Below are positions 10,696-61,983 of a stretch of 64,000 bases of DNA, piece by piece (the stretch's first letter is position 1; the number at the start of each line of letters is the position of its first letter). Made by a program: the position numbers and the translations under genes. The notes beneath the pieces were generated by a model. The model worked only from the letters and a program-made list of their open reading frames with translations. It ran no database searches and was not told the origin of the DNA. The DNA is from Halorussus amylolyticus (GTDB lineage Archaea; Halobacteriota; Halobacteria; Halobacteriales; Haladaptataceae). The stretch covers positions 1 through 64,000 of the forward strand of contig NZ_RXOB02000022.1 of NCBI RefSeq assembly GCF_004143485.2, in the 5' to 3' direction.

Positions 10696-10714
10696 CTTTG
10701 TTATGGCCCGTCTG
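10696..10714 (-). promoter_or_regulatory. glycan promoter motif, site 1
   Basis: In gene direction reads CAGACG-GGCC-ATAACAAAG. It lies 54 nt upstream of the ATG at 10642 and would place transcription start near 10671 if used like a TATA box. Same bipartite motif as seven other glycan units in the window. Confidence 0.65.
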
Positions 10715-10831
10715 CGTCGTCGCTCTCGCCGTGCGAACCGCGTTACGCTCGGTCTGTCCGGGTCGTAGGCGGCCCTTTCGTCCGGAGTCGAATCCGGCGC
10801 GCGGGTCGCTCGTTTGGGACACTTCACCCGA

Positions 10832-10873
10832 CCCAATCGCGGCGCGTCGGCGCGCCGACGCGCCGCGATTGGG
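10832..10873. terminator. 42-bp perfect palindrome downstream of flippase gene
   Basis: Two 21-bp arms with no spacer, reading outward from the flippase stop (30 nt away on the minus strand). No T-run follows, so this would act as a strong hairpin or processing signal rather than a classic archaeal poly-T terminator. It separates the two glycan operons. Confidence 0.55.
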
Positions 10874-10902
10874 AATCCGGTTCGAATCCGAGACGCCGAC
10901 GG

Positions 10903-12369
10903 TCAGGAGAGAATCGCGGAGACCCGCCGGGGGTCGAGCAGGCCGCTCGCGACCGAGAGCCCGGCCCACACCGCGATTCCGAGCGGGATGGCGGTCGCGA
11001 CCGCCACCGCCCCGGTGGTGGCGGTCAGCGCGGCGTACACCGCGACCGACATCCCGGCCGTGATTCCGACCGTCGCGACGAGATGGCGGACGAGTCGGCC
11101 GAGCGACAGCGAGAGTTCGCTGTGGATGACCCAGACGTTCACGCCGGTGTAGCCCGCGAACGTGACCACGGTCGCGGCCGCCGCGCCCACCACGCCGAAC
11201 GCCGGGATGAGGACCAGATTCAACAGGAAGTTTGCGACCGAGGTGGCCGCCTTCGCGTAGGCCCGCGAGCGCGCCCGGCCGAGGAAGTCGAGCGCGTCGC
11301 TCGTGATGAACGACACCGCCTGCAGGACGACGTAGGCCGAGAACACCTGCAGGGCGGGCGCGGCACCCGCGTACCCCTGCCCGAACACGAGTCGGACAGC
11401 GGGGTCGGCGACCAGCACCATCCCGGCGGCGGCGGGCACGTACAGCAGGAGGGTGTGTTCGAGCGCGGTCTCGTAGATGCGGGCCGCGCGCTCGGTCTCG
11501 CCCGCGGCCTTCTCCTCGCCGTAGGTCGGCGAGAGCGTGAATCCGAGCGAGGCGGCCGGGGTCTGGACGAAGTCCACGATTTGCTTCGCGAGGTAGTAGT
11601 GACCGACCGCGACCGGCGTCATGAAGTAGCCGACCAGAATCGTGTCCACGCGCTTGTCGAGGACGTTCGCGCCCCGAGTCGCGGTGAGGGGAACGCTGTA
11701 CTCGAGGACGCGCCGGGAGAGGCCGGGTTCGGGTTCGTCGGCGGGGTCAGTGTCACGGTAGCACTTGACGTACAGCAGGCCGAGTCCGAGCGCCGCCCCG
11801 AGGGCGTAGCCCGCGACGTAGCCTATCATCGCGCCGACCGCGCCGCCGACGACCGCGACGAACGCCACCGTGAGACCGAGTCGAGCGGCCGCGCCGGTCG
11901 CCTGAATCGTCGCGCTGTTGGTCACTCGGTTGTAGCCCTGAAACACCACCTGCGAGAAGGTGAACAGCGAGTGGACCACGATGTAGCCCGCCCCGACCGC
12001 GAGCAAGGGGCCGATTTCGGGCTGGCCGACCAGCGCCGCGATTCGGTCGCCGAACAGCGCGAACGCGCCAGCCACGAGTCCCGCTGCCGCGAGCCGGTAG
12101 GCGAACGCGGCCCGGAGGATGTGGGGAAGCTGTCCGGGGTCCTTCTCGCGGTACTCGGTCACGTACCGGGCGGCCGACTTACCGATGCCGAGGTCGGCGA
12201 ACAGTTGGGCGACCCCGAGGACCGCGACCGCGCCGCCGACCAGCCCGAACTCCTCGCTCGTGAGCAGGAATCGGGTGAGAACGAGCGTGAGCAGACCGCT
12301 CGCTCCCATGTAGATGATTCGCGCGCCGAACGTCGCTTTGAGGCCGCGAGAGACTCGTTTCAGGTCCAT
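10903..12369 (-). CDS. polysaccharide flippase (Wzx/MATE-like oligosaccharide exporter)
   Basis: Membrane protein of 488 residues with about 12-14 helices and the polysaccharide biosynthesis (MVF/Wzx) pattern, including an N-terminal GARIIYMGASGLLTLVLTRFLL helix region and an amphipathic AARYVTEYREKDPGQL loop. The role is to flip lipid-linked oligosaccharide across the cytoplasmic membrane for S-layer N-glycosylation or exopolysaccharide export. It starts 1 nt after the stop of the upstream membrane gene (12371), so the two are co-transcribed from the motif at 14224-14242. Confidence 0.9.
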   Translation of the reverse strand: MDLKRVSRGLKATFGARIIYMGASGLLTLVLTRFLLTSEEFGLVGGAVAVLGVAQLFADLGIGKSAARYVTEYREKDPGQLPHILRAAFAYRLAAAGLVAGAFALFGDRIAALVGQPEIGPLLAVGAGYIVVHSLFTFSQVVFQGYNRVTNSATIQATGAAARLGLTVAFVAVVGGAVGAMIGYVAGYALGAALGLGLLYVKCYRDTDPADEPEPGLSRRVLEYSVPLTATRGANVLDKRVDTILVGYFMTPVAVGHYYLAKQIVDFVQTPAASLGFTLSPTYGEEKAAGETERAARIYETALEHTLLLYVPAAAGMVLVADPAVRLVFGQGYAGAAPALQVFSAYVVLQAVSFITSDALDFLGRARSRAYAKAATSVANFLLNLVLIPAFGVVGAAAATVVTFAGYTGVNVWVIHSELSLSLGRLVRHLVATVGITAGMSVAVYAALTATTGAVAVATAIPLGIAVWAGLSVASGLLDPRRVSAILS

Positions 12370-12370
12370 C

Positions 12371-14164
12371 TCAGGCGGTCCCGTTCACGAGGTACGTCTG
12401 GACGTCCCGGTTCGCGTGGACCCGGTTCAGGCCGGGCGTCGAGTCCAGCGACTCGAATCCGCGCTCGGGGAATCGCAGTCCGCGATACACCTCGACGTCC
12501 TGCTGGCGGGTCGCGTCGGTGACCGTGAGGTATCTGCCCGGTAGATTGTCCGCGAGGTACGCCCCGGTGAAGTTCTCGCCGGTCGCGTTCGTGTTGGCGT
12601 AGAGGCTCCCCGAGGTCGGTGCACTCGCCCTGCTCTCCTCGTAGCCCATCGTCGCGTCGGCGAACCGCTCGCCCGTCCCGCGAACCCCGAGGAACGGCGC
12701 GTCTCCGGCGTATTCGAAGGCGTTGGCGTAGCCGGTCGTCTGGGCCTCGGTGACGTGGCTCGACCCCTGATACATGTACGGCGAGGCGTACACCGTCGGC
12801 ACCGAGAGCGCGAGCATGACGACGAACGCGACCCCGACGACCGCCTTGGCGGTCGTCGGCGAGAACCGACCCGCCAGCGTATCGAGACCGCGAGTCAGCG
12901 CGACCGCGCCGAGGACGGTCCCCAGCACCATCACGAACCCGAGCTGTCGGAAGTGGAGTCCGGCGTAGCTCACGAACAGGAACGCCCCGAACAGGCCGAG
13001 CAGGGGTATCAGTCCGAACCCGAAGTACCGGACGAACGCGCGCTGGTCGGGGTCTTCGACCGTCCCGCGGAACCCCGCCAGGACGACCAGCGCGGTGAGT
13101 CCCGCGAACACCGTGCTCACGAGGAACAGCTTCAGGAAGATGATTCCGACGCTCCCACCGATGGTGGACAGCGAGACCGCTTGGGCCCCCACGTCGCTCC
13201 CGATGTCGGCCCCGCCTTGGACCATCTCGACCAGCGCGGTCGTCGCCCCGGAGGCCCGCTCGTGGCGGGGTGCCCACAGCAGGAACGCGCCCCCGATGAC
13301 GGCGGTCTGGAACGCGACGAGGCTGTGGTCGGCGGCCGTACCGCCGACCCACCGCGCGAGAAGCTGAAGCGCCAGCACCGACCCGAACACGACGAGGGCG
13401 TTGGCGGCCTGTTGTGGGTGGACTAACACGATTGCGACCGACGCGAGCGCGAGGAGCGCCCCGGTCGGCGTTCCCACGAGCAGGCTCCCGCGGTCGGTCC
13501 CGGTCACGTACCGCGCCAGCAGGTACAGCACCAGCGGGAAGAACAGGATGGCCTGAGAGGTCGGATGCGCCATCTCGAACACGCTGATGTTGTTTATCGG
13601 CAGGAGGAGGAACGCCGACAGCGCCGCGACCGCGCTCGCGCGACGGTCGCGCGTGAGCGCCCACGTCGCGAGCGGGACGAACAGCAGGAACACCGCGGTG
13701 AACGCCATCACCATCACCAAGAGCGCGCGGGTCAGGGGCATCCCGGTCACGTCGGCGAGAAACACCGCAATCGTGTGCGTGCCGGGGTAGAGGAACTCCA
13801 GTATCGAGAGCCTGCCCGCCGCGATGTCCTTCGCCCACCCGAGGTGGGTCAGCGAGTCGCCAGCGCCGTAGAAGTAGTACGACCGGACGACCGGCAACGA
13901 AGCGATGGCGAGCGTGGCCGTCCCGCCGAGGACGAGCGCGAGTCGGCGAACCCCGCCGCGAGACCCGAGACCGACGAATACGGCGACCGCGAGGGCGACC
14001 CCGGTCCCGACCCAGAAGCCGAGCGGCGTCCCGGCGTAGATTGAGAGTTCGTACGCCTCCGGCGGCGACCCGCGAGCGACCAGTACCGCCGCAGCGAGCG
14101 ACACGAAACCGACGAGAAGTGCGCCTTTCTCCCGACTCCGGGAGACGTGCGTGTCCGAATCCAT
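12371..14164 (-). CDS. large multi-spanning membrane protein of glycan synthesis (polymerase/glycosyltransferase-like)
   Basis: 597 residues with about 13-15 predicted membrane helices, a large extracytoplasmic loop early in the chain (SYYFYGAGDSLTHLGWAKDI, with Asp-rich character typical of GT-C-type transferases) and a soluble C-terminal domain of about 130 residues containing a sequon (NATGENFTG). The architecture fits a GT-C glycosyltransferase or a Wzy-like polymerase; neither can be proved from sequence. It heads an operon with the flippase. The ATG at 14164 is chosen; the leader contains a 7+1+7 palindrome. Confidence 0.75.
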   Translation of the reverse strand: MDSDTHVSRSREKGALLVGFVSLAAAVLVARGSPPEAYELSIYAGTPLGFWVGTGVALAVAVFVGLGSRGGVRRLALVLGGTATLAIASLPVVRSYYFYGAGDSLTHLGWAKDIAAGRLSILEFLYPGTHTIAVFLADVTGMPLTRALLVMVMAFTAVFLLFVPLATWALTRDRRASAVAALSAFLLLPINNISVFEMAHPTSQAILFFPLVLYLLARYVTGTDRGSLLVGTPTGALLALASVAIVLVHPQQAANALVVFGSVLALQLLARWVGGTAADHSLVAFQTAVIGGAFLLWAPRHERASGATTALVEMVQGGADIGSDVGAQAVSLSTIGGSVGIIFLKLFLVSTVFAGLTALVVLAGFRGTVEDPDQRAFVRYFGFGLIPLLGLFGAFLFVSYAGLHFRQLGFVMVLGTVLGAVALTRGLDTLAGRFSPTTAKAVVGVAFVVMLALSVPTVYASPYMYQGSSHVTEAQTTGYANAFEYAGDAPFLGVRGTGERFADATMGYEESRASAPTSGSLYANTNATGENFTGAYLADNLPGRYLTVTDATRQQDVEVYRGLRFPERGFESLDSTPGLNRVHANRDVQTYLVNGTA

Positions 14165-14223
14165 ATGTAATCAGGGCGTCCGAGTCGGACGCGTAGCTAC
14201 CACGAAACGTCCCCGCGTCGGGG

Positions 14224-14242
14224 TTTTGTTATGGGCCGCCTG
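14224..14242 (-). promoter_or_regulatory. glycan promoter motif, site 2
   Basis: In gene direction reads CAGGCG-GCCC-ATAACAAAA, 60 nt upstream of the ATG at 14164. The last base differs from the consensus G. Confidence 0.65.
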
Positions 14243-14396
14243 AAGCCGAGTAGGGCGACGAAAAGACGCGCAGAGTGGGGTGGCGTTCTTTGGGCGAAGC
14301 CCCGCGTAACTCGGACGGAACGTCGTAACCGACCGCGTGAAAAAATCCGAATTTACGGGAAGATTTTAGAGTGTTCCCGCCGAATCGGTTCGTGTC

Positions 14397-14663
14397 ATGT
14401 CGAAATCGACGGACGAACGGGGCCGAATCTACCTCCCGAAGAACGTCCGAGAGCGATTCGGCGACCGGTATCGAATCGTCGAACTCCCGAGTCACGTCGC
14501 GCTGTTTCCTGTCGATGAGGACCCACTGGACGGACTTCGGGCCGCCGTGGGCGACGCGTTCGAGGACGCAGACGGTGACGAAATGAAACGCCGAGCGCGC
14601 GAAGCGCTCTCACGAGAGATTCGAGACGAAGCCGAGAATCGCTCGCAGGAGCGCGGAGAGTGA
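14397..14663 (+). CDS. vapB: VapB-type antitoxin (AbrB/SpoVT fold)
   Basis: Antitoxin of 88 residues that neutralises the downstream PIN toxin and represses the operon. Seen: AbrB-type swapped-hairpin motif (DERGRIYLPKNVRERFGDRYRI) in the first 35 residues, then an acidic and basic toxin-binding tail. A TATA-like GATTTTAGAG about 29 nt before the ATG indicates a leaderless transcript. Its TGA overlaps the GTG of vapC by four bases (GTGA), the usual coupling in VapBC loci. Confidence 0.88.
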   Translation: MSKSTDERGRIYLPKNVRERFGDRYRIVELPSHVALFPVDEDPLDGLRAAVGDAFEDADGDEMKRRAREALSREIRDEAENRSQERGE

Positions 14664-15058: not shown

Positions 15059-15172
15059 CGTGTCTCGGAACCGTCGCGTTCGGTCGCCCCGAACTCCTTT
15101 TAGCTCGGAACCCGTTCCACCTCTGGGGGAGAAAAATGGGAGTGACTACCACACACAACGGGGGGAACGACC

Positions 15173-18647: not shown

Positions 18648-18648
18648 C

Positions 18649-36777: not shown

Positions 36778-36796
36778 AAGTCGAGACATAACAAAG
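36778..36796 (+). promoter_or_regulatory. glycan promoter motif, site 3
   Basis: Reads AAGTCG-AGAC-ATAACAAAG. The right half ends 25 nt before the ATG at 36821, the exact TATA spacing for a leaderless gene. The left half is a weaker match to CAGRCG. Confidence 0.6.
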
Positions 36797-36820: not shown

Positions 36821-37165
36821 ATGCCAGACGGGGCTTCCTCCGAGTCGCTCACGACCGACCGGGTGTTCGATTTGCTCGCCGACGCCGAGCGTCGGCGAGC
36901 GCTCTCCGCGCTCCGGAGCGCCGACGGGTCGGTGCAGTTAGGCGACCTCGCGGCCGAAACCGTGGCGCGCGACGAGTGCACCGACCCCTCGACGGTGACG
37001 GCCGACGAGCGCGAGCGGACCGCGGCCGCGCTCCACCACAAGCACCTCCCGCGACTCGCCGACTCGGGGGTCGTGTGCTACGACCCCGCCGAGAGTCGGG
37101 TCGAACTCACCGAAACCGTCGAGGAACTGACTCCCTACTTCGAGATTATCGACGCGTACGAGTAA
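36821..37165 (+). CDS. DUF7344 winged-helix regulator, copy 1
   Basis: 114-residue putative transcription regulator. Seen: the DUF7344 pattern LTTDRVFDLLADAERRRALSAL, a long central helix segment ending ALHHKHLPRLADSGVVCYD, and a wing-like end. No membrane segment, unlike copy 2 at 54743. Leaderless from the ATG at 36821. It is 51 nt upstream of an acyltransferase gene and shares the glycan promoter motif, so it may regulate that regulon and itself. Confidence 0.8.
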   Translation: MPDGASSESLTTDRVFDLLADAERRRALSALRSADGSVQLGDLAAETVARDECTDPSTVTADERERTAAALHHKHLPRLADSGVVCYDPAESRVELTETVEELTPYFEIIDAYE

Positions 37166-37216: not shown

Positions 37217-37732
37217 GTGACCGACGAGACGCGCCGCCACGACCGCATCGAGCGCCACGCCACGCCGGGTCCCGGAAACTCGCTCCGGTCGTGGCCCGAC
37301 GCCAAGCACCCGCTCCGGGTCGCGCTGAACTACGCGGTCATCGTCCTCGCGCGAATCTCGCCCAGTCTGAAGCTCAAAAATGTTCTCCTCCGGTCCATCG
37401 GCGTGACGGTCGGCGAGGGTGTCTCGTGGGGCCTCGAATCGACGCCCGACGTGTTCTGGCCCGAACTCGTCACGGTCGAGGACCACGCCATCGTCGGCTA
37501 CGACGCGACCCTCCTCTGTCACGAATTTCTGCAGGACGAGTACCGAACGGGCGAGGTGGTCGTGGGCGAGCGCGCCATGATTGGCGCGGGCGCAATCGTG
37601 CTTCCGGGCGTCGAAATCGGCGCGGGTGCGAGCGTGGCGGCGAACTCGCTCGTGACTCGAGACGTGCCGCCTGGCGAGACGGTCGCTGGCGTGCCCGCCA
37701 AACCGATGGGGAGCGACGAATCGCCCGACTGA
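37217..37732 (+). CDS. left-handed beta-helix acyltransferase (WbbJ-like O-acetyltransferase)
   Basis: 171-residue hexapeptide-repeat transferase. Seen: N-terminal helices (LRVALNYAVIVLARISPSLKLKNVLLRSIGV), then hexapeptide repeats (VVVGERAMIGAGAIVLPGVEIGAGASVAANSLV) and the C-terminal VAGVPAKPMG typical of sugar O-acetyltransferases. GTG start at 37217. Second gene of the DUF7344 copy 1 operon; role in acetylating surface glycan is inferred from family and promoter. Confidence 0.85.
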   Translation: MTDETRRHDRIERHATPGPGNSLRSWPDAKHPLRVALNYAVIVLARISPSLKLKNVLLRSIGVTVGEGVSWGLESTPDVFWPELVTVEDHAIVGYDATLLCHEFLQDEYRTGEVVVGERAMIGAGAIVLPGVEIGAGASVAANSLVTRDVPPGETVAGVPAKPMGSDESPD

Positions 37733-40495: not shown

Positions 40496-40819
40496 GTGTA
40501 TCGAGCGCGCGACCACGTCGAAAACGAGCGCTGGCTCGCCGAGCTGCAGCGAACCGCCGACCGTCTCGACCTCGACACTGCCGCCCGCTCGCGCGCGACC
40601 GACCTCTTTCTCTCGACCGTCACCGAGTGGGACGGCGACGAGAGCGACGACTCGAAGCGCGCGGTGGTCGCGGCCAGCCTCTACGCCGGGTCGCTCATCG
40701 CGGGCGACCAGCGCTCGCAGGGTGCGGTCGCCGACGCCGCCGGAGTCTCGCGGCTGACCATCCAACAGCGGTGGAAGACGCTCCTCGAAGAAGCCGGGCT
40801 TCAGCCGCCGTCGTGGTAG
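40496..40819 (+). CDS. single cyclin-repeat TFB-like protein
   Basis: 107 residues resembling one cyclin fold of transcription factor B/TFIIB: DRLDLDTAARSRATDLFLSTV, then KRAVVAASLYAGSLIAGDQRSQ and the HTH-like GAVADAAGVSRLTIQQRWKTLLEEAGL. It lacks the N-terminal zinc ribbon and the second cyclin repeat of a full TFB (about 320 residues). GTG start at 40496 with a TTTATG box 30 nt upstream. Possible promoter-selectivity or regulatory factor; divergent from tRNA-Leu. Confidence 0.75.
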   Translation: MYRARDHVENERWLAELQRTADRLDLDTAARSRATDLFLSTVTEWDGDESDDSKRAVVAASLYAGSLIAGDQRSQGAVADAAGVSRLTIQQRWKTLLEEAGLQPPSW

Positions 40820-46780: not shown

Positions 46781-47863
46781 TTACTGAACCAACTGATACG
46801 CGCGCTTGGCGACGTTCATCGCCGCGCCGGGCGACTCGACCACGTAGTACGGCACGAGGTCCGCGCCGAACTTCGCCTTGTACCGACACAGACGCTCGGT
46901 GTTCGCGCCCATCAGGTCGTAGGTCGTCACCGACTCGACCGGCGGGTCCTCAATGATGTCCTCGATGAGTCGCCAGTGGATGAGGCTGTTGACCGCGGTC
47001 CCCTCGTAGATGGCCTTCGCGCCGCCCTGCCAGAAGTAGGCGACGTCGTTCGAGTAGAGCGCGGTGATTCCCGAGAGATACTCGCCGTCGCCGTCGCGCG
47101 CGACGTACGCCCGCGACCGGTCGCCGAGCGCGTCGAACAGCTCCCTGACGTACGCCCACGTCTGCGAAAACGGCTCGTCCTGTTCGGCGTACCGACGCTG
47201 AGTCGCCCGGAACACGTCACGAGCGCCCGACAGCCCCTCGGTCTCGACGGTCACGTCGAGGTCCTCGGCGTCCCGAATCTCCCGCCGGAGGCTCTTGGAG
47301 AACGACTTGCGAACGTCCTCAGTGTCCCGACTTTCGAGGTCGAGAAAGTACGTGAAGTTGGGTTCGACCCCGAGGTTCCCCCACGAGTACGGCCTGGGGT
47401 CGGCGTAGTCGGCGTTACAAATCATCCGAAAGAGGGTCAGCCGCGAGTCCACGTCGAGTCTGTCGAGGACCGACTCGGCCATCGGCGACTCGACGCCCGC
47501 GCTGGCGAGTCGCTCGTCGAGACCGAGGTCGGTCCCGACCTGCGCCAACACCCCCTCGGTGAACTCCTGATTGACTTTCTCCTGCTTTCGTCGCTTGGGG
47601 CTGGTCGGCATCAGGATGGGTCCGAGTCGCGGGATGCCGAGTCCCGGCGGCGGCGACGTGACCGCGGTTCCGACCGACCTACGCCGGACGAAGACGGGCA
47701 GGAGCGCGATGGGCTGTTGGCCCTTGAAACCGCCGAACAGCTTCATCTCGGCGTCGGTGTGTCGCGCGACGACCTCCAGCGCCTCGGGCCGGTGGAACAC
47801 CTCGAAGCCGTCGCTCGGTAGCGCCGATTCCCACTCCGACAAATCGAGTTGCTCGACTCTCAT
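46781..47863 (-). CDS. FemAB/GNAT-fold transferase, copy 1
   Basis: 360-residue protein of the FemX/BacO (double GNAT) family. Seen: FEVFHRPEALEVVARHTDA at the N-terminus, SFSKSLRREIRDAEDLDV and the conserved ending YDLMGANTERLCRYKAKFGADLVPYY. Bacterial FemAB use aminoacyl-tRNA to add amino acids to peptidoglycan; archaea lack that, so an acyl or aminoacyl transfer to surface glycan is inferred. Paralogue at 57286. Own promoter with the glycan motif. Confidence 0.85.
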   Translation of the reverse strand: MRVEQLDLSEWESALPSDGFEVFHRPEALEVVARHTDAEMKLFGGFKGQQPIALLPVFVRRRSVGTAVTSPPPGLGIPRLGPILMPTSPKRRKQEKVNQEFTEGVLAQVGTDLGLDERLASAGVESPMAESVLDRLDVDSRLTLFRMICNADYADPRPYSWGNLGVEPNFTYFLDLESRDTEDVRKSFSKSLRREIRDAEDLDVTVETEGLSGARDVFRATQRRYAEQDEPFSQTWAYVRELFDALGDRSRAYVARDGDGEYLSGITALYSNDVAYFWQGGAKAIYEGTAVNSLIHWRLIEDIIEDPPVESVTTYDLMGANTERLCRYKAKFGADLVPYYVVESPGAAMNVAKRAYQLVQ

Positions 47864-47891: not shown

Positions 47892-48872
47892 TCACTTTGT
47901 TATCCCCCGCCTGTCGGTGCGTAGGTCGCCCCTGTCGTCGAGAGCCGGTTCGGCTCTCGACGGCGTGGCTCCTGCTGACTCGCCCCCTGCCGACTCGCTT
48001 CGCGGATGGTCCATCAGGTCGTAGTACTCGCCCGGCGGGCCGACCCACGCGCCCATCTCCAACGCTCGCTCGATGAGCCTGCGGTAGAGGTCGCGGTAGC
48101 CCGGAAAGTCGCTCTCGGTGAACAGGCGCGGATGCCACAGCACCGACATCACGGCGTCGTTCTCGTCGGCTTCTTCGAGCAGGTCCGAACACACCTCCCA
48201 CGCCCGCTCGAACTTCGATTCGGGGTCGGGGAGCGCGGCCTCCATCAGCGTGAGCGGAAACACCACGAACTCGTCGCCGAACGGCCGGAGCGGTCGGTAG
48301 CCGTACTCGAAGCCGGACTCCGAACTCGACCCCGGACTCGCGTCGTAGCGCAGGCCGATGTCTCGGTGGTGCTCCCACGTCCTCGGCCCGCGATTCAGGT
48401 GGTGCTGGCGACCGCCCACCACCTCGTGGCCGAGCGCGGCCTCCAGCGCGACCTTCTCCATTCGAAGGCGGTCGGGGTCGTCGTACGAATCGTACGAACC
48501 GTGGAGTCCGACTTCCCACCCGCCGGTGCGGAGTCGTTCGAGGAGGTCGGTCATCTCGGGCGTCTGCACGTCGTACCGACCCGCGTGTTCGACCCAGTAG
48601 AAGGGGTCGAGCCAGTCGGCCGGGTCGCGTTCGAGAATGTGCCTCTCGCGCAAGAAGTAGAACGCCGACCGGACCCCGAGCGAGGCTTCGAGGTCCGTAA
48701 TCTCGTCGAACTGCCACCACGGATTCACGCCCGGGACGAGCGACTTCAGTTGACCGGGGTCGCGGCGCTCGACGGCGTGGTAGAGTCCCTGCACCGACTT
48801 GTACGGTCGGTCAACGTCGTGAGTCAGCAACAGCGCGAACTCGCCGTCCACCGGAAGGCGTCCGTCAGACAT
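47892..48872 (-). CDS. polysaccharide deacetylase family protein
   Basis: 326 residues with a NodB-like core: LLLTHDVDRPYKSVQG (catalytic Asp-Asp region), VRSAFYFLRERH, GWEVGLHGSYDSYDD (His metal ligand) and VMSVLWHPRLFTES. Such enzymes remove N- or O-acetyl groups from glycans. The ATG at 48872 overlaps the stop of the upstream epimerase gene by eight bases. The last ~40 codons run over an inverted repeat (47936-47962). Confidence 0.87.
   Translation of the reverse strand: MSDGRLPVDGEFALLLTHDVDRPYKSVQGLYHAVERRDPGQLKSLVPGVNPWWQFDEITDLEASLGVRSAFYFLRERHILERDPADWLDPFYWVEHAGRYDVQTPEMTDLLERLRTGGWEVGLHGSYDSYDDPDRLRMEKVALEAALGHEVVGGRQHHLNRGPRTWEHHRDIGLRYDASPGSSSESGFEYGYRPLRPFGDEFVVFPLTLMEAALPDPESKFERAWEVCSDLLEEADENDAVMSVLWHPRLFTESDFPGYRDLYRRLIERALEMGAWVGPPGEYYDLMDHPRSESAGGESAGATPSRAEPALDDRGDLRTDRRGITK
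47895..47913 (-). promoter_or_regulatory. glycan promoter motif, site 4
   Basis: Gene direction: CAGGCG-GGGG-ATAACAAAG. The right end is 32 nt before the ATG at 47863 (FemAB copy 1), inside the 3' end of the deacetylase gene. Confidence 0.65.
47936..47962. terminator. 12-bp stem inverted repeat in 3' end of deacetylase gene
   Basis: Arms of 12 bp around a 3-nt loop (47936-47947 / 47951-47962), located 33 nt upstream of promoter motif 4. It may end the upstream operon before the FemAB promoter. Confidence 0.4.
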
Positions 48873-52562: not shown

Positions 52563-53640
52563 AGTCGAGTATTGCGGCGGCGATGGTTCTGAGATTCTGT
52601 TCGGTGACGTTCGGGTGAATCGGGAGCGAGAGCGCCTGCTCGGCGGTTCGCTCCGCGACCGGTCCGGCGTAGTCGGTGTCGGCGTAGGCCGACTGTTCGT
52701 GGATGGGCGTCGGGTAGTAGACGCCCGTGCCGACGCCCGCATCTTCGAGGTAGTCGGCGAGTCCGTCGCGGTCGTTCGCGCGAATCGTGTACTGGTGGTA
52801 GACGTGTCGCCTGTCGTCGGGTTCGGTCGGCGTCACCACGTCGGCGTCGGCGAGCGCGTCGGTGAGGTACGCCGCGTTCGCGCGCCGGGATTCGTTGTAC
52901 GCCGGAAGCCGCTCCAACTGGACGCGACCGATGGCGGCCGCCATCGAGGTCAGCCGGAAGTTGTGGCCGACCCGTTCGTGCCGGTAGCCGCCCTCGGGCG
53001 GTCTGCCGTGGTTGATGTAGCTCCGGGCGTTCTCGGCCACGTCGTCGCGGTCGGTCGTCACCATCCCGCCCTCGCCCGTGGTCATGTTCTTCGTGGGGTA
53101 GAACGAGAAGCACGCCGCGTCGCCGAGCGACCCGACCGTCCGACCCCGATACGTCGCGCCGTGAGCCTGTGCGGCGTCTTCCACGAGCGCGATATCGTGG
53201 GTATCCGCGATTTCGCGTAGGCGGTCCATCTCGGCGGGAAGCCCGTAGAGGTGGACCGCGAGAATCGCGGCCACGTCGTCTTCCCGGCGAATCGCTTCCT
53301 CGACCGCGGTCGGGTCGAGATTGTAGGTGTCGGGGTCGATGTCCGCGAAAATCGGTTCCGCGCCCGCAAGCCGAATCGCGTTCGCGCTCGCCACGAACGA
53401 GTACGGCGAGGTGACCACCGCGTCGCCCGCGCCGATATCCAAGGCTTCGAACGCGGTGTGGAGCGCGGTCGTCCCGTTCGAGGTGGCGACCGCGTGGTCG
53501 GTCCCGCAGAATGCGGCGAACTCGGCTTCGAATTTGCGGACTTCGGGGCCGTCCGCGAGCATTCCGGATTCGAGAATCGCATCGACCTTCTCGCGCTCGC
53601 GCTCGCCGAGTTCGGGGTCCGCGATGGGAATCTCACTCAT
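52552..53640 (-). CDS. DegT/DnrJ/EryC1 aminotransferase (WbpE type)
   Basis: 362-residue PLP sugar aminotransferase. Seen: SNGTTALHTAF, VEDAAQAHGATYRG (PLP-stacking Asp), internal-aldimine Lys in FYPTKNMTTGEGGM and GHNFRLTSMAAAIGRVQLE. Adds the 3-amino group to the 3-keto sugar acid. Overlaps both neighbours, so the four genes form one tightly coupled operon. Confidence 0.94.
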   Translation of the reverse strand: MSEIPIADPELGEREREKVDAILESGMLADGPEVRKFEAEFAAFCGTDHAVATSNGTTALHTAFEALDIGAGDAVVTSPYSFVASANAIRLAGAEPIFADIDPDTYNLDPTAVEEAIRREDDVAAILAVHLYGLPAEMDRLREIADTHDIALVEDAAQAHGATYRGRTVGSLGDAACFSFYPTKNMTTGEGGMVTTDRDDVAENARSYINHGRPPEGGYRHERVGHNFRLTSMAAAIGRVQLERLPAYNESRRANAAYLTDALADADVVTPTEPDDRRHVYHQYTIRANDRDGLADYLEDAGVGTGVYYPTPIHEQSAYADTDYAGPVAERTAEQALSLPIHPNVTEQNLRTIAAAILDYER

Positions 53641-54308
53641 GCGATTTGATTCCCTCCGTCGAGCGGTTCGGGGAGCGGGCGATGCTCGGCGGGCGCGCCG
53701 ATTGCGAGCGTCTCGGGCGGCACGTCGTCGGTCACGACGGCCCCGGCCGCGACGAACGACCCCTCGCCGACCGTCACGCCCGGCAAGAGAGTCGCGTTCG
53801 CGCCGACCGAGACGTGATTATCGAGCGTCGGGCCGTCGAGGTCTACGTCCTGCCGAATCGGGTACGGGTCGTTGGTGAGGACCGCGCGCGGGCCGACGAA
53901 CACCTCGTCGCCGACGGTGGTGTCGGTCGGGACGTACACGCCGGTCTGGAGGCTGACGTGCGAGCCGATTTCGGTCGTCCCGTCGATGACGGTGTCGGTG
54001 CCGACCACCACGTCGTCGCCGATGGCGGTGTCCTCGCGGACGAGGACGCCGTGGCCGGTGGTGAAGTCGTCGCCGATTTCGACGTCGCAGTAGACGATGC
54101 TCCCCGACCGAATCGTCGCGCGGTCGCCGACCACTGGCGGGTCGGCGTCCTCGCGGTGACGGTGGCCGACCGTCGCGTCGGGCGCGACCTCGCAGTCGTC
54201 ACCGAGTCGCGGGTCGAGCGAGCGTTCGGTGGGTGCGTCGTTAATTCGAGAATCGTCGGTACGCGAGTCGCTGGCGCGCGAATCGTCGGCGGGGTCGGTC
54301 CTAGCCAC
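53637..54308 (-). CDS. hexapeptide N-acetyltransferase (WbpD/WlbB type)
   Basis: About 223 residues. After a disordered Asp/Ser/Arg-rich N-terminus (about 1-35) there is a left-handed beta-helix (GDRATIRSGSIVYCDVEIGDDFTTGHGVLVRE ...) with a conserved loop AVLTNDPYP and end VTDDVPPETLAIGAPAEHR. Acetylates the 3-amino group to yield UDP-GlcNAc(3NAc)A. I choose the GTG at 54308, which has GGAGGTG 9 nt upstream; an ATG at 54335 is the alternative. Confidence 0.88.
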   Translation of the reverse strand: MARTDPADDSRASDSRTDDSRINDAPTERSLDPRLGDDCEVAPDATVGHRHREDADPPVVGDRATIRSGSIVYCDVEIGDDFTTGHGVLVREDTAIGDDVVVGTDTVIDGTTEIGSHVSLQTGVYVPTDTTVGDEVFVGPRAVLTNDPYPIRQDVDLDGPTLDNHVSVGANATLLPGVTVGEGSFVAAGAVVTDDVPPETLAIGAPAEHRPLPEPLDGGNQIA

Positions 54309-54440: not shown

Positions 54441-54459
54441 CTTTGTTATACGCCGCTTG
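54441..54459 (-). promoter_or_regulatory. glycan promoter motif, site 5
   Basis: Gene direction: CAAGCG-GCGT-ATAACAAAG, upstream of the wbpD-E-B-A type operon. Predicted transcription start near 54416, giving a leader of about 100 nt. Confidence 0.6.
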
Positions 54460-54611: not shown

Positions 54612-54630
54612 CAGTACGCGGGTAACAAAG
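54612..54630 (+). promoter_or_regulatory. glycan promoter motif, site 8 (variant)
   Basis: Reads CAGTAC-GCGG-GTAACAAAG on the plus strand. Ends exactly 25 nt before the ATG at 54655, the start of a short leader ORF ahead of the DUF7344-glmM operon. Confidence 0.5.
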
Positions 54631-54654: not shown

Positions 54655-54756
54655 ATGCGGCGGTCTCACCTGCGTTCATCCTTCCACTCCGGTGGCTCAG
54701 ACGACGTATCGCCCGCGACGACCGGCCAGCAGCCACGGGGATATGTCCCGCGCTGA
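54655..54756 (+). CDS. possible 33-residue leader ORF before DUF7344 copy 2
   Basis: Leaderless ATG at 54655, 25 nt after promoter motif 8. It reads MRRSHLRSSFHSGGSDDV... and stops at 54756, overlapping the regulator start (54743) by 14 nt. Basic, Ser-rich, no homology recognised. Confidence 0.3.
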   Translation: MRRSHLRSSFHSGGSDDVSPATTGQQPRGYVPR

Positions 54757-55303
54757 ACAGCTCTCTCAGGACGAGGTGTTCGAGGTCCTCAAGAGTCCTC
54801 GCCGCCGGTACGCGCTGTACTACCTCCGGCAGGAGGGCGGCGAGACCGACCTCTCGGACCTGACCGAGCAGGTCGCGGCGTGGGAGAACGAGACCACGAC
54901 GGCGGCGTTGACGACCGAACAGCGAAAGCGGGTGTACATCTCGCTCTACCAGACCCACCTCCCGAAGTTGGACGAGGCCGACATCGTGGAGTACGACCGC
55001 GACGAGGGCGTGGTCCGACTCGGCGACCGGGCCTCGGACCTGAATCTGTACCTCGGCGACGTGAGCCGCGAGGAGTTCCCGTGGGACCGCTACTACCTCG
55101 GACTCGTCGGCGTGAGTTCGCTGCTGGTCGCCGCGGTGTGGCTGAACATCTACCCGTTCGGCCTGATTCCGGGACTCGTCCTCGCGACCATCATCCTCGT
55201 CGCGTTCGGCGTCTCCTCCATCGTCCACTTTCTGAAGTACAGGCGCGGCGGCGAAGTCGGCACGCCGCCTGAACTCAGCAGAGCGAACGGACAAGAACAC
55301 TGA
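54743..55303 (+). CDS. DUF7344 regulator with C-terminal membrane anchor, copy 2
   Basis: 186 residues. N-terminal DUF7344 winged-helix-like domain (LSQDEVFEVLKSPRRRYALYYL ... YISLYQTHLPKLDEADIVEYD) followed by two membrane helices (YYLGLVGVSSLLVAAVWL and LIPGLVLATIILVAFGV). A membrane-anchored transcription regulator is a reasonable reading. ATG at 54743; GTG at 54692 is possible. glmM follows after 18 nt. Confidence 0.82.
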   Translation: MSRAEQLSQDEVFEVLKSPRRRYALYYLRQEGGETDLSDLTEQVAAWENETTTAALTTEQRKRVYISLYQTHLPKLDEADIVEYDRDEGVVRLGDRASDLNLYLGDVSREEFPWDRYYLGLVGVSSLLVAAVWLNIYPFGLIPGLVLATIILVAFGVSSIVHFLKYRRGGEVGTPPELSRANGQEH

Positions 55304-55321: not shown

Positions 55322-56629
55322 ATGTTCGGAACGAGCGGCATTCGAGGCGAAATCGGCGAATCGGTCACTTGCGACCTCGCGCTCGACGTTGGTCGAGCGC
55401 TGGCGAGCGAGGGGTATCAAAACGTCGTCGTCGGGCGCGACGCCCGCGAGAGCGGGCGGATGCTCGCCGACGCGGCGACCGCCGGACTCCGGGAGTGCGG
55501 CGCGGACGCGATTCGCGTCGGCGAGGCAGCCACGCCCACGGTCGCCCGGAGCGTCGAGTGGCGCGACGCCGACGCCGGACTCGTCGTGACCGCGAGCCAC
55601 AATCCCCCGCAGGACAACGGGCTCAAACTCTGGAACCCCTCCGGACAGGCGTTCGACGAGGCACAGCGCGAAACGATTTCCGCGCGCGTACGCGACCAAA
55701 ACTTCGACCTCGCATCGTGGGACGACCTCGGCGAGGCGACTCGATGGGACGGCGCGACCGACCGCCACGCCGAGGCGCTCGTCCGGGCCGCGGGGTCGGG
55801 CGACCGCGCTATCGTCGTGGACGCGGGCAACGGCGTCGGCGGCGTCACTGCCGACGCGCTCCGGAATCTCGGTCACGACGTGCAGACGCTCAACGCCCGT
55901 CCGGACGGTAGTTTCCCCGCGCGCCCGAGCGAACCGACCGCCGAAAACTGCGCGACGCTCTGTGAAGTAGTCGCAGCGACCGACGCGGACCTCGGCATCG
56001 CCCACGACGGGGACGCCGACCGGATGCGCGCGGTCACGGCGACCGGCGAGTTCGTGTCGGGCGACCTCCTGCTCGCGGCGTTCGCGCGCGAGGCCGCGAA
56101 CCCCGGCGACAGGGTGGCCGTCCCGGTCGATACCAGCCTCGCGGTCGCCGACCTGCTCGAAACGCAGGGCGTCTCAGTCGAGCGCACGCGCGTCGGAGAC
56201 GTGTACGTCGCGGAGGCCGCGACCGACTCGGGCGTGTCGTTCGGCGGCGAACCCAGCGGCGCGTGGATATGGCCGGACGAGACGCTGTGTCCTGACGGCC
56301 CGCTCGCGGCGTGTCGGCTCGCGGAATTGGTCTCGCGGCGCGGGCCGCTCGGCGACCTCGTGGCGGAAATCGAGACGTACCCGCTCCGGCGCGGGAGCGT
56401 CGAGACCGAGCGGAAAGCCGAGAAGATGGAGCGGGTCCGCGAACGCGTCACGAGCGAGTACGACGACGTGGACACTCGGGACGGCGTTCGCGTGGAGGTG
56501 AACGACGGGTGGTTCCTGATTCGCGCCAGCGGGACCGAGCCGATAGTTCGAGTGACCGCGGAGGCCCGGCGCTCGCGCCGGGCCGACGCGCTGTTCGCGG
56601 ACGCCCGGCGGATGGTCGAATCGAACTGA
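55322..56629 (+). CDS. glmM: phosphoglucosamine mutase (phosphohexomutase family)
   Basis: 435 residues of the alpha-D-phosphohexomutase superfamily. Seen: MFGTSGIRG, phospho-Ser loop VTASHNPPQDNG, metal loop AHDGDADRMRA, sugar loop FGGEPSGAWIW and phosphate loop IRASGTEPIVRV. Interconverts GlcN-6-P and GlcN-1-P (phosphomannomutase activity also possible), feeding UDP-GlcNAc for the Wbp pathway. Operon with DUF7344 copy 2. Confidence 0.92.
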   Translation: MFGTSGIRGEIGESVTCDLALDVGRALASEGYQNVVVGRDARESGRMLADAATAGLRECGADAIRVGEAATPTVARSVEWRDADAGLVVTASHNPPQDNGLKLWNPSGQAFDEAQRETISARVRDQNFDLASWDDLGEATRWDGATDRHAEALVRAAGSGDRAIVVDAGNGVGGVTADALRNLGHDVQTLNARPDGSFPARPSEPTAENCATLCEVVAATDADLGIAHDGDADRMRAVTATGEFVSGDLLLAAFAREAANPGDRVAVPVDTSLAVADLLETQGVSVERTRVGDVYVAEAATDSGVSFGGEPSGAWIWPDETLCPDGPLAACRLAELVSRRGPLGDLVAEIETYPLRRGSVETERKAEKMERVRERVTSEYDDVDTRDGVRVEVNDGWFLIRASGTEPIVRVTAEARRSRRADALFADARRMVESN

Positions 56630-56656
56630 GTCCGTCGAGACTGAATGGTCGCCGAC

Positions 56657-57285: not shown

Positions 57286-58305
57286 CTACCGGAACTTCTT
57301 GTAGACGCTCGACAGCGCGTTGGTGACGCGCGTGCCGTTCTCGACGCTGTAGTACGACCGGAGTTCCGGCCCGAACTTCGCCTTGTACTCACAGAGGCGC
57401 TGCTCGTTCGCGCCCACGAGGTCGTAGCGTTCGAGGCCGCGGTCGATGGCGTCGGTCACGATGGCCCAGTCCACGAGGTCGTTGACCGGGAGGTCGCGGT
57501 CGTGTTTCGCACCGCCCTGCCACCGGTAGACGGTGTCGCCGAACTCCAGTGCGACCATTCCGCCCGCGATTTCGCCGTCGATTTCGCAGGCGTAAGGCCG
57601 GACCGCGCCCTCGGGGAGTCGTTCGTAGAGTTCGGTCACGAACGCGGGGGTGACGCCGTAGGACTCGTCCTGCTCGCGGTGGCGCTCGCGGACCTGCGAG
57701 ACGACGGCTTCGATTTCGTCGGGACCGCCCTCGTACACCCGGAAGTCGCCGTCGGTCCGGATGTTGTTGCGGGCGTCCGAGGAGAACGACATCAGCACGT
57801 CGTCCGCGCCGGGCGTCAAATCCACTTCGTAGGTGTGGCGCACGGTCACGTCGAAGTCGCTCCACTCGAACGGGCGCACGTCGCGGTACGAGGGGTCGGG
57901 CCGAATCTGGGTGTACTTCGGGCCGAGTTCGCGCTCGACCCAGTCGAGACACCCCTCGACGAACAGCCTGTTTCGGCGCTCTGCCTTCCGACGCTTGAGT
58001 TTGGCCTGATTCAGGAGCGCCGGGCCGAGGTACGACACCCACAGCCCCGGCGCTGGCGAGAACGCCATCGTCATCCCGCCTTTCCGGGTCTCGAACACCG
58101 GGAGGACGCCGACCGGCTCCTGGCCCTTGTAGCCGACGAGCGGGTGAAGGCGGGCGTCGGCGTGTTCGGCCTGCACTTCGAGCGCCTCGCGGTAGTGGAA
58201 GACGTTGGCCTGGGGCGACCGCTCCACGAAGTCGTTCCACCGCTCCAAGTCGTCTTCGTCGGCGCGTGCGATACTGATGCCGTTCTTCTCGATTGTGACG
58301 CTCAT
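57286..58305 (-). CDS. FemAB/GNAT-fold transferase, copy 2
   Basis: 339 residues, paralogue of the protein at 46781: both share FHYREALEVQAEHADARLHPLVGYKGQEPVGVLPVF-like N-termini and the ending YDLVGANEQRLCEYKAKFGPELRSYYSVENG. It starts one base after the stop of the alkaline-phosphatase-superfamily gene at 58307, so it is in the same operon. Role in decorating surface glycan is inferred. Confidence 0.85.
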   Translation of the reverse strand: MSVTIEKNGISIARADEDDLERWNDFVERSPQANVFHYREALEVQAEHADARLHPLVGYKGQEPVGVLPVFETRKGGMTMAFSPAPGLWVSYLGPALLNQAKLKRRKAERRNRLFVEGCLDWVERELGPKYTQIRPDPSYRDVRPFEWSDFDVTVRHTYEVDLTPGADDVLMSFSSDARNNIRTDGDFRVYEGGPDEIEAVVSQVRERHREQDESYGVTPAFVTELYERLPEGAVRPYACEIDGEIAGGMVALEFGDTVYRWQGGAKHDRDLPVNDLVDWAIVTDAIDRGLERYDLVGANEQRLCEYKAKFGPELRSYYSVENGTRVTNALSSVYKKFR

Positions 58306-58306
58306 G

Positions 58307-59941
58307 TTATTCGAGGTATCCTAAGTCCGCGAGTCGCGCTTCGACGTCGCCGTCGTTCGTCTCCACCTGCGCGTCGGCGTCGAACTCGGGGTACGACTCG
58401 GTGCCGGTCGATTCGACCGCCGGAAGCACCGACCCGTCCATCCGGTCGCCCGCCGGGACGCCGAGGGTCGCCAGCACCGTCGGGGCCACGTCGAACAGGT
58501 GCGCGCCCGAGATGTCGGTGTCGGCGTCGATGCCCTCGCCCGCGAGCGCGACGATTCCCTCGCGCTTGTGGTTGTAGGGTTCGGTCGGCGGGCCGAACGT
58601 GCCGTCGCCCACGCGCGTCGAGAGGAACTGGTCGAAGTCGGCCGGAATCGTCACCACGTCGGGCGCGCTGTCCACGTACGGTCCCGAGAACACCTCCTCG
58701 CGGCGGGCGACCCGCTCGAACGCGGGCCGCCCGTCGGGCGTCTCGACGCTCGACAGCATCGCCACGAGGTCGTCTCGAATTTGGTCGTAGGCCTCGGGCG
58801 GAACCACTCCGTTCGGCTCTCTGCCTTCGAGATTCACCCGGACGCCGAGTTCGATTCGGTCGCGCATGTACGCGACCGACTCCGGAAAGTCCACCTGCTC
58901 GGCCGCTGCGCGCGCCACGTCATCGGGCACGCGCTCGGCCACGAAGTCGGCGAGACCCACCGCGTCGAGCGCGGCGTGGATGCGCTGGCTCGTCAGGCCG
59001 ACCGAGGCCCCGGCCGAGAGGCCGCGCGCGACCAGACTCGGGTCGCGCGCGGCCTCTCCCTTTCCGGATTCGCCGTTCCGAAGCTGATTCGCGGCGATGG
59101 TGGACCACGCGGGCATCCCCTCGCCGCCTTTCTTTGTCTCGACGAGGCCCTGCTCGCGGAGGAACTCGTTGACCCGGAACTCGTGGCCGTCGTACTCGCC
59201 CATGCCGTGGTCGCTCACCACGAGGACAGTGTCGGGGTCGCAGGCGTCGAGTATCGCGCCCACCTGCTGGTCCACCGCCTCGTAGACCGCCCGGACTTTC
59301 CCGTCGTCGCCGGGGAACTCGTGGAACACGGTGTCGGTCTGCTGGAACTGGACGAAGCCGAACTCCGGGTCGAATCTGTGGGCGAGGTAGCGAAACGCCT
59401 CGCCGCGCATCCGGACGAGTCGGCGGTACCACTCGACTTTCTCGTCGCCCGACGCATCTCGTGGCGCGTACACCCGGTACTCCCCGATTTCGTCCCGAAT
59501 CTCCGAGAGGAGTCCCTCGGGATGGCAGTCGGGGTTCTCGGGCGCGGTGTAGCCCGGAACGACCGCGCCGTCGATTTCGCGGGGCGGATGGGTGACCGGC
59601 GCGTTGACCACGACGCTCGACAGGCCGCGCCGGTCGAGAAGTTCCCAGAGGGTCCGCTCGCGGACGTGGGAGGCGTTCACCACGTCCCAGTCGTAGCCGT
59701 CGAACGTCAGAAACCCGAACACGCCGTGCTTGCCGGGGTTGACGCCGGTGTAGAGCGACGGCCACGCGCTCGGGGTCCACGGGGGAATCTGCGACCGGAG
59801 TCCGGCGTCGGCACCCCGGTCGAAAATTGATTCGAGTCGCGGGAGCGCGCCGTCCTCGAACAGGGGTTCGAGGACGGACCGACACCCCGCGTCCACCCCC
59901 ACTACGAGGGTCTGCATCGTCGTCTGCGGGCGGTCAGCCAT
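58307..59941 (-). CDS. alkaline-phosphatase-superfamily (phosphodiesterase-like) protein, copy 2
   Basis: 544 residues. Seen: VVGVDAGCRSVLEPLF, nucleophile region QIPPWTPSAWPSLYTGVNPGKHGVFGF, VVVNAPVTHPPREIDGAVVPGYTAPE, VSDHGMGEYDGHEF and a C-terminal VEARLADLGYLE. Closest to copy 3 at 62096. Leaderless ATG at 59941, with promoter motif 6 ending 26 nt upstream. No signal peptide. Confidence 0.86.
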   Translation of the reverse strand: MADRPQTTMQTLVVGVDAGCRSVLEPLFEDGALPRLESIFDRGADAGLRSQIPPWTPSAWPSLYTGVNPGKHGVFGFLTFDGYDWDVVNASHVRERTLWELLDRRGLSSVVVNAPVTHPPREIDGAVVPGYTAPENPDCHPEGLLSEIRDEIGEYRVYAPRDASGDEKVEWYRRLVRMRGEAFRYLAHRFDPEFGFVQFQQTDTVFHEFPGDDGKVRAVYEAVDQQVGAILDACDPDTVLVVSDHGMGEYDGHEFRVNEFLREQGLVETKKGGEGMPAWSTIAANQLRNGESGKGEAARDPSLVARGLSAGASVGLTSQRIHAALDAVGLADFVAERVPDDVARAAAEQVDFPESVAYMRDRIELGVRVNLEGREPNGVVPPEAYDQIRDDLVAMLSSVETPDGRPAFERVARREEVFSGPYVDSAPDVVTIPADFDQFLSTRVGDGTFGPPTEPYNHKREGIVALAGEGIDADTDISGAHLFDVAPTVLATLGVPAGDRMDGSVLPAVESTGTESYPEFDADAQVETNDGDVEARLADLGYLE

Positions 59942-59966
59942 GTACCGGATATCGCACACGTCCGGC

Positions 59967-59985
59967 CTTTGTTATGGGGCGTCTG
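59967..59985 (-). promoter_or_regulatory. glycan promoter motif, site 6
   Basis: Gene direction: CAGACG-CCCC-ATAACAAAG, ending 26 nt before the ATG at 59941. Best example of the TATA-like position. Confidence 0.7.
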
Positions 59986-60146
59986 TCGTCCGACAAATCC
60001 CTCCTACCCGGCCGAAAACCGGGTATGCTCTCGTTACCGCGCCGACTTCGAGCGGTAACGGTCGCTTACGTTCGACCGTTCCGACCGTTCCATCGACGGC
60101 CAATAGACTTAAATCGGTAAGCTATCATTGAAATTGAATCGGCAGG

Positions 60147-60154
60147 TTTTTAAA
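60147..60154 (+). promoter_or_regulatory. canonical TATA box of the beta-helix gene
   Basis: TTTTTAAA about 26-33 nt before the ATG at 60180. This secreted protein therefore does not use the glycan motif although it lies within the cluster. Confidence 0.6.
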
Positions 60155-60179
60155 TGGAGACTATTCTATTGAAAATCGC

Positions 60180-61736: not shown

Positions 61737-61751
61737 TTCGATTCCGTTCCA

Positions 61752-61777
61752 GAGAGAACGCGAGTTCGCGTTCTCTC
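61752..61777. terminator. 12-bp stem inverted repeat after beta-helix gene
   Basis: Arms GAGAGAACGCGA and TCGCGTTCTCTC around 2 nt, 15 nt after the stop of the gene ending at 61736. Confidence 0.6.
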
Positions 61778-61837
61778 GGTTCGCCGATTCGCCGCGCTTT
61801 CCGGTGACTGTTACTCACTACCCTGTTCGCTTGCCCC

Positions 61838-61867
61838 GCGACAGCGTAGCGGGAGCTACGCTGTCGC
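61838..61867. terminator. 13-bp stem inverted repeat
   Basis: Arms GCGACAGCGTAGC and GCTACGCTGTCGC with loop GGGA, followed by CTTCT. Second hairpin in tandem after the beta-helix gene. Confidence 0.6.
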
Positions 61868-61964
61868 CTTCTAACCATATTTCAGTTGTCGCTTTTAGCT
61901 CGCCCACCGACCGACTCGCGCGTAGCCCGCCCTTGTCCGAGAATCGCCCCGGCCTGAACCGCCG

Positions 61965-61983
61965 AAGGCCGGGCATAACAATG
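61965..61983 (+). promoter_or_regulatory. glycan promoter motif, site 7
   Basis: Right half ATAACAATG (one mismatch) and a weak left half; an 8-bp hairpin (CCCGGCCT/AGGCCGGG) lies immediately upstream. Predicted transcription start near 62008, before the gene at 62096. Confidence 0.5.

Follow-up and report, generated by a model that had tools for sequence, protein, structure and literature searches.

How archaea regulate the glycosylation of their surface is, to our knowledge, poorly understood. Bipartite promoter elements are familiar in haloarchaea from the gas vesicle and bop promoters, where the upstream activator sequences of GvpE and Bat lie near the transcription factor B recognition element (BRE), upstream of a real BRE and TATA box. 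The haloarchaeal core promoter itself is described as a BRE of sequence CGAAA, a TATA box TTWT and a WW pair at -10 (PMC4983044). The activators EarA, TFB-RF1 and Ptr2 act at archaeal promoters with a weak BRE or TATA box (PMC5512572). Sites of two haloarchaeal regulators have also been described: that of CsmR, TATCA-N4-TGATA, adjoins the TATA box (PMC13286277), and that of TrmB, which affects the supply of glucose for glycosylating the S-layer, is a 19-mer, palindromic in part, that in activated genes generally lies ahead of the predicted core elements (PMC10817205). The subject of this report is an element, ATAACAAWG with an A at a fixed distance upstream, that heads many surface-glycan genes in a 64,000-nucleotide stretch of the Halorussus amylolyticus genome (contig NZ_RXOB02000022.1, positions 1 to 64,000; hereafter the window). 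We propose, with a probability of roughly 0.55 for the reading as a whole, that it belongs to a separate core promoter class of haloarchaea, one that serves many surface-glycan genes and has a dedicated regulator, most likely a DUF7344 protein.

Set beside the BRE/TATA promoter (PMC4983044), the element resembles it in its distance from the start, in the same W pair at -10 and in some leaderless starts, and departs from it in having ATAACAAWG instead, no T-rich TATA box and a near-invariant A at -42. Like the EarA, TFB-RF1 and Ptr2 promoters (PMC5512572) it combines a poor core with a conserved upstream contact, and a regulator would recruit the TATA-binding protein (TBP) or transcription factor B (TFB); unlike them, its core is a strict 9-mer common to a large gene set. 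With CsmR (PMC13286277) and TrmB (PMC10817205) sites it shares a position set relative to BRE and TATA. Its sequence differs from that of the CsmR motif, which lies next to the TATA box, and it is unlike the TrmB 19-mer, by the description of that motif, in that the latter is partially palindromic and generally upstream of the core. Literature searches for the 9-mer gave no earlier description, and among the matches listed none was archaeal by title; a search for TAACAAAG with haloarchaea returned only unrelated work.

A first-pass annotation of the window had described a motif CAGRCG-N4-ATAACAAAG at eight places, ahead of every glycan transcription unit but one. All eight sites were found in the window letters at the positions and on the strands listed below, together with the genes that follow them.

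10696-10714, minus strand: element CAGACGGGCCATAACAAAG, before a phosphodiesterase-like gene (9053-10642) and an epimerase-family gene (8114-9043)
14224-14242, minus strand: element CAGGCGGCCCATAACAAAA, before a membrane protein (12371-14164) and a flippase-like gene (10903-12369)
36778-36796, plus strand: element AAGTCGAGACATAACAAAG, with the ATG of a short DUF7344 gene (36821-37165) 24 nt downstream
37217-37732: hexapeptide acyltransferase, after the short DUF7344 gene 36821-37165
47895-47913, minus strand: element CAGGCGGGGGATAACAAAG, before a FemAB-like gene (46781-47863) and overlapping the 3' end of gene 47892-48872
54441-54459, minus strand: element CAAGCGGCGTATAACAAAG, before the wbpD-like unit that runs from 54308 down to 50218
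54308-50218: the unit itself, comprising a wbpD-like hexapeptide transferase, a DegT aminotransferase, a GFO/IDH/MocA oxidoreductase and a UDP-sugar dehydrogenase
54612-54630, plus strand: element variant CAGTACGCGGGTAACAAAG, before a DUF7344 gene and a glmM-like gene
59967-59985, minus strand: element CAGACGCCCCATAACAAAG, with the ATG of a phosphodiesterase-like gene (58307-59941) 25 nt downstream
57286-58305: FemAB-type (Acetyltransf_6) gene, after the phosphodiesterase-like gene 58307-59941
61965-61983, plus strand: element AAGGCCGGGCATAACAATG, before a phosphodiesterase-like gene (62051-63745)

The right half of the motif, ATAACAAAG with at most one mismatch, occurs ten times in the window against 1.0 expected and a maximum of 5 in 100 shuffles; eight of these matches are the sites above, and the extra two lie at 1321 and 35050. 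For the full motif at up to three mismatches there are 8 matches against 0.75 expected, a search that adds a match at 60378 and misses the site at 54612. The claimed distribution over transcription units was borne out: a site lies in the 200 nt ahead of eight of nine glycan unit heads and ahead of none of 28 others (Fisher 2.3e-7), in a count that took its glycan labels from the earlier list, used a pattern that admitted the variants present at the sites, and entered the FemAB gene by hand as a head (gap below 80 nt). Gene calls came from a simple codon-usage caller trained on the window, and some starts are possibly wrong. The single exception, wbpI, is as had been stated (it matches Epimerase_2 in Pfam), and its relative in Halobium (L192) does carry a site. 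Ahead of metK, thiI, pgk, purD, gshA and dacZ, where the motif had been reported missing, a TATA-like sequence rich in A and T stands at the customary distance instead. Most of the gene names are backed by Pfam; gene 47892-48872 (the "deacetylase") and the membrane protein 12371-14164 matched no Pfam family at E 0.001. The 47895 site falls within the last codons of 47892-48872, a placement seen also in the loci of three relatives (L114, L115, L121), and the element before the FemAB gene is conserved in relatives.

The same element recurs across the host genome (3.78 Mb in 20 contigs), where ATAACAAAG occurs exactly 33 times against 5 for the reversed-pattern control, five of the 33 falling in the window and the rest elsewhere. 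Only one of the 33 is inside a gene, 26 have a called gene start within 300 nt, and 31 have an A nine positions before the core. One of them, on contig C18, duplicates a site on C6, since C18 begins as the reversed end of C6; the match later runs out of register, with 5,584 of 8,940 positions matching ungapped. A scan with a weight matrix, built from 74 exact-core sites and run on the same loci of the host and its family from which those sites came (572,725 bases), gave 82 hits at a score of at least 20 against 1 in the reversed sequence, the training sites being among the 82; six hits were inside genes and 75 had a downstream gene within 300 nt. Chance or compositional bias, for which no support was found, is contradicted by the shuffle, reversed-pattern and unit-level controls, and its probability is negligible; as a sequence feature the promoter class is almost certainly real.

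For the architecture of the element, positions -9, +22 and +33 are counted from the start of the 9-mer core, and -33 and -42 from the purine of a pyrimidine-purine (YR) step taken as +1. The left half of the bipartite motif is only partly constrained, the one fixed base being the A at -9, which is present in 8 of 8 window sites and in 71 of 74 sites of the host's family, usually within Y-A-R. The other bases of CAGRCG are a preference of that family that fades in other families, and because out-of-family sites keep little beyond it, the left half was cut down to Y-A-R. The element is better described by the consensus Y-A-R-N7-ATAACAAWG. The 74 family sites were picked by exact core, and their logo counts include close orthologues; a second set, of 65 sites from other families, was picked by the pattern YAR-N7-ATAACAAWG alone.

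The pattern fixes no base downstream of the core. The family logo has W at +22, and in the 65 out-of-family sites A and T make up 77% and 62% at +22 and +23, with Y at +32 in 53 of 65 and R at +33 in 59 of 65. Of the 47 out-of-family sites left when those with an ATG at +33 to +35 are set aside, 37 have a YR step at +33; no other offset from 24 to 43 has it in more than 20. Judged by these unselected bases at +32 and +33, the 9-mer therefore spans -33 to -25 of a predicted YR start, and the A that hardly varies falls at -42. Element-to-start gaps within 18-39 nt are most commonly 24 to 27 in both site sets. Ordinary host promoters, represented by 162 upstream regions, are enriched relative to the ATG in A at -35 to -33, T/A at -29 to -26 and W at -11/-10; at element sites with an ATG 24 to 26 nt away the 9-mer spans the positions of the first two signals, and the W pair at -11/-10 is present as well. 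As had been noticed at the outset, the motif occupies the TATA position and is unlike a usual haloarchaeal TATA, with no T/A-rich box. Leaderless ATGs had been proposed at three places; those at 36821 and 59941 follow the element at gaps of 24 and 25 nt, and that at 54655 opens an upstream open reading frame (ORF) where transcription is predicted to begin, the DUF7344 start being called at 54743. A possible phasing of contacts one helical turn apart (A/T at -20/-21 and -30/-31 of the family logo) was weak in other families, and no claim is built on it.

What can be read directly from the sequences is the element itself, where it sits with respect to the conserved signals of initiator and start codon, how it is conserved and which genes lie behind it; these suggest that it would very probably act as a core promoter in place of BRE and TATA. 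An opposite sign of action is conceivable, namely a repressor operator laid over a poor TATA box, in which case the 9-mer would reflect recognition by the repressor and the glycan genes would be switched off. Archaeal repressors can overlap BRE and TATA (PMC5512572, PMC10817205), and the divergent arrangement of DUF7344 and wbpD described below is compatible with either sign. The logos of the 74 and 65 sites, however, contain no separate TATA-like enrichment, the 9-mer placing C-A-A-W there, and therefore the 9-mer itself must support initiation; a repressor operator is accordingly improbable.

The analysis of conservation covered 293 genomes of the order, 27 from the host's family (f1) and 266 from other families (f4 to f15). 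The general pattern YAR-N7-ATAACAAWG gave 705 sites in f1 against 29 reversed controls, with all 27 genomes carrying the element, and 666 sites against 177 controls in the 266 other genomes, distributed as follows.

Family f4: 156 sites, 56 controls, 68 genomes
Family f5: 101 sites, 40 controls, 70 genomes
Family f6: 17 sites, 4 controls, 13 genomes
Family f7: 54 sites, 4 controls, 8 genomes
Family f8: 285 sites, 52 controls, 72 genomes
Family f10: 0 sites, 0 controls, 1 genome; excess absent
Family f11: 4 sites, 5 controls, 3 genomes; excess absent
Family f12: 1 site, 1 control, 1 genome; excess absent
Family f13: 20 sites, 10 controls, 23 genomes; excess weak
Family f15: 28 sites, 5 controls, 7 genomes

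The element is heaviest in the family of Halorussus, Haladaptatus and Halomicrococcus, where the narrower form CAGRCG-N4-ATAACAAAG, with one mismatch allowed, has 4 to 15 sites in every sampled genome. An element specific to that family was ruled out because other families show a clear excess with the general pattern. Halorussus, Haladaptatus and Halomicrococcus species are among the named relatives for the FemAB gene. In the FemAB promoters of five out-of-family genomes the core is present with at most two changes and the A at -9 is seen by eye.

Surface-glycan functions are prominent among the genes behind the element. Host targets outside the window include glmS, a hexapeptide-repeat nucleotidyltransferase (GTAACAAAG variant), a DUF7344 gene that precedes one for a geranylgeranyl-reductase-family protein, a flippase-like protein (ATAACAAAT variant), DUF1616, PMT_2-like and arylsulfotransferase-like proteins, two PKD/PGF-CTERM secreted proteins and an ATP-grasp-like protein that scores below the curated cut-offs. 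The final 1,455 bases of contig C3 (the end of locus L093) are identical to window positions 1-1455, so that glmS, with the element, and the GlmU-like gene, with a variant of it, probably lie a few kb to the left of the window. Outside the host, the claim of a glycan-rich set consists of Pfam counts for 49 first genes. These come from eight genomes of f4, f5, f7, f8 and f15, in which the element often precedes the same glycan genes and the 65 listed sites are concentrated in few loci; 53 of the 65 are distinct, with 2 inside genes and 49 followed by a downstream gene. Among the matches listed, the first genes comprised hexapeptide repeats (6), DUF1616 (4), phosphodiesterases (4), GlmS-type SIS/GATase proteins (3), Acetyltransf_6 (3), family-2 glycosyltransferases (3), DegT aminotransferases (2) and TFB (2). 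The glycan regulon of the first-pass annotation survives as a glycan-rich set conserved in relatives; it is not glycan-exclusive, several targets being without a known surface role.

Some other host sites have surroundings of their own. Those at C2:238299 and C9:128647 resemble each other in the sequence that follows; neither has a called gene within 300 nt, and they may drive small RNAs. At C3:360131 (L093) a site lies about 27 nt before a tRNA-like gene to which ARAGORN assigns an odd two-base anticodon.

Which protein reads the element is a separate question, for which an alternative TBP/TFB pair or an activator at -40 had been suggested. An alternative TBP was rejected for the host because it has a single TBP gene (two PF00352 repeats, at one place), as is the case in 14 of 24 f1 genomes, the host included. 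There remain the TFB proteins, one paralogue of which might, together with the ordinary single TBP, read the element directly with no separate activator. The 9-mer takes the position of BRE and TATA, and, against its one TBP gene, the host carries seven different two-repeat TFB genes (an eighth, on C16, is identical to that on C7; 3 kb around it are identical between the two contigs, so that some host sites and genes are counted twice). In two genomes of family f7 an identical 19-mer, TAGCGGGTTCATAACAAAG, heads a TFB paralogue (L205, L214). Set against this, the A at -42 lies outside the usual BRE contacts; the element is absent from the 200 nt upstream of all seven host TFB genes; and of 57 TFB gene calls in several genomes only the two of f7 have it, some calls starting late so that their true upstream region was not read. 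The glycan loci of five genomes contain no two-repeat TFB match, the sole match in the window being a single-repeat protein. A TFB as autoregulated reader holds in f7 only (2 of 2 genomes checked) and fails in the host. The expansion of TFB genes in haloarchaea is old (PMC4230888), a point in favour of such a reader. Direct reading by a TFB paralogue is, on balance, rather unlikely. The single-repeat protein of the window (40496-40819, plus strand) has 107 residues, one TFIIB repeat (Pfam 32.9 bits) and a TATA-like promoter; single-repeat TFIIB matches occur also in 113-141-residue frames in four other genomes.

For a dedicated regulator, the glycan loci offer one recurrent candidate. When 548 glycan-locus proteins from 18 genomes (11 groups) were clustered, one widely shared regulator emerged, DUF7344, whose cluster is represented in the loci of 15 of the 18 genomes and in 8 groups. 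In the window its gene stands in the following arrangement.

53637-54308, minus strand: wbpD-like hexapeptide transferase, divergent from the DUF7344 gene 54743-55303
54655-54756, plus strand: upstream ORF of 33 codons that opens with an ATG exactly at +33, the predicted transcription start, and overlaps with the start of DUF7344
54743-55303, plus strand: DUF7344 protein, the candidate reader, with an N-terminal part resembling a winged helix and a pair of C-terminal helices, hydrophobic by eye
55322-56629, plus strand: glmM-like gene (phosphoglucomutase/phosphomannomutase domains), in the DUF7344 operon

The divergence of DUF7344 from a wbpD-like gene recurs in 10 of the 15 genomes (five of f1, G086, G203, G165, G183 and Halegenticoccus). 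A wider set, with duplicates removed, comprises 31 DUF7344 genes, of which 22 are divergent and have a variant core with the A at -9: GTAACAAAG in 15 of f1, one of f7 and two of f4, and ATAGTAAAG in two of f8, one of f5 and Halegenticoccus. The short DUF7344 gene of the window has ATAACAAAG upstream and is not divergent; the other eight of the 31 have neither variant, one of them (Halalkalicoccus) having ATAACAAGG. Within f1, divergence from the wbpD-like gene and the G variant of the 54612 site are each retained in 15 of 15 distinct sequences. In Halorussus the DUF7344 gene shares its operon with glmM, and in G086, G029 and G203 further DUF7344 copies lie directly before glmS.

The product of 54743-55303 matches DUF7344 (PF24035) at 114.5 bits, against a Pfam gathering score of 27.8, and a literature search for DUF7344 found no description of it. 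Its AlphaFold model has a mean pLDDT of 79, about 90 for residues 11-100, with helices and strands in winged helix-turn-helix-like order followed by two long C-terminal helices; the protein may be membrane-anchored. A match of the model to an ArsR-family chain had a probability of 0.95, but an E value of 0.16. The leader of the gene is itself conserved. In 15 of 15 family sequences the first ATG from +28 onward sits at +33, and an upstream ORF at the same position is found in the loci of 14 relatives (L118, L121, L178-L188, L197); in Halorussus it has 31-42 codons and begins MRRSHLR or MRRSYLR, and in Haladaptatus and Halomicrococcus it encodes a 6-codon peptide, MRWWHP, MQWWHL or MRWWNP. Two more host DUF7344 leaders (L088, L091) contain short ORFs that end at or overlap the start codon.

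A different reader, such as the PadR-family protein of some glycan loci or a protein encoded elsewhere, might instead read the element. A PadR-like protein of 91-92 residues is encoded in the glycan loci of four genomes (L190, L231, L237, L242), with the variant ATAACAAAT, or in one case ATAACAATT, upstream of its gene, and a host PadR relative (PF03551, L106) directly follows a gene headed by GTAACAAAG. Such a gene is present in the loci of only 4 of the 18 genomes, and we consider a reader of this sort very improbable.

Several observations weigh against a glycan promoter class read by DUF7344 and have to be kept in view. As to the promoter class, gene calling put no gene within 300 nt of seven of the 33 host sites, and the 75 nt before FemAB in four loci from metagenome-assembled genomes contain no such core. 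Host targets without an evident glycan link include an MCM OB-domain protein (GTAACAAAG variant), DUF378 and DUF7563; further ones are small proteins without a family and an SMC-like protein below cut-off, whose site has no A at -9, and the remaining out-of-family first genes include others of this kind. As to the reader, DUF7344 of the shared cluster was not seen in 3 of the 18 genomes, of which about 21 kb each was covered, and a structure search of the model against the PDB returned no match at E ≤0.001. The host has 23 DUF7344 genes, one of which accounts for two of the 24 domain matches, and four of the 23 have the element; no exact core lies upstream of the other 19, of which 15 were scanned individually. 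Homologues occur in 290 of 293 genomes, even in some without a site, so that the presence of DUF7344 is uninformative as a phylogenetic marker and it is the neighbourhood of the gene alone on which the assignment of a reader is based. Finally, archaeal activators do not usually read a position such as -42 together with a strict 9-mer laid over the site of TBP and TFB, as this factor would. Taken with the genome context set out above, these points leave DUF7344 of the glycan locus as the best single candidate, with about an even chance of being the reader.

The mechanism that we propose is one in which ATAACAAWG at -33 to -25 would replace BRE and TATA, with the W pair at -11/-10 kept. The element would drive glmS, the DUF7344-glmM operon, GlmU-like and wbpD/E-like genes, phosphodiesterases, FemAB-type, flippase-like and DUF1616 genes, and also some secreted surface proteins. 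A dedicated regulator may bind the element and recruit both TBP and TFB to a TATA-like sequence that is weak, and this regulator would most likely be the DUF7344 protein encoded divergently from wbpD; if membrane-anchored, it would couple the state of the envelope to transcription of glycan genes. By analogy one might go further and imagine a selectivity system like the extracytoplasmic function (ECF) sigma factors, in which DUF7344 would sense the envelope or a lipid-linked sugar, direct TBP, TFB and polymerase, and receive feedback via the leaderless upstream ORF, a picture that we regard as speculative and unlikely.

A core promoter that marks a pathway supplies an immediate list of candidate members, and turns the identity of their regulator into a testable question. 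If the proposal is true, transcription of haloarchaeal genes can start at a fixed site without any recognisable pair of BRE and TATA. DUF7344, a widespread haloarchaeal family, gains a first functional hypothesis.

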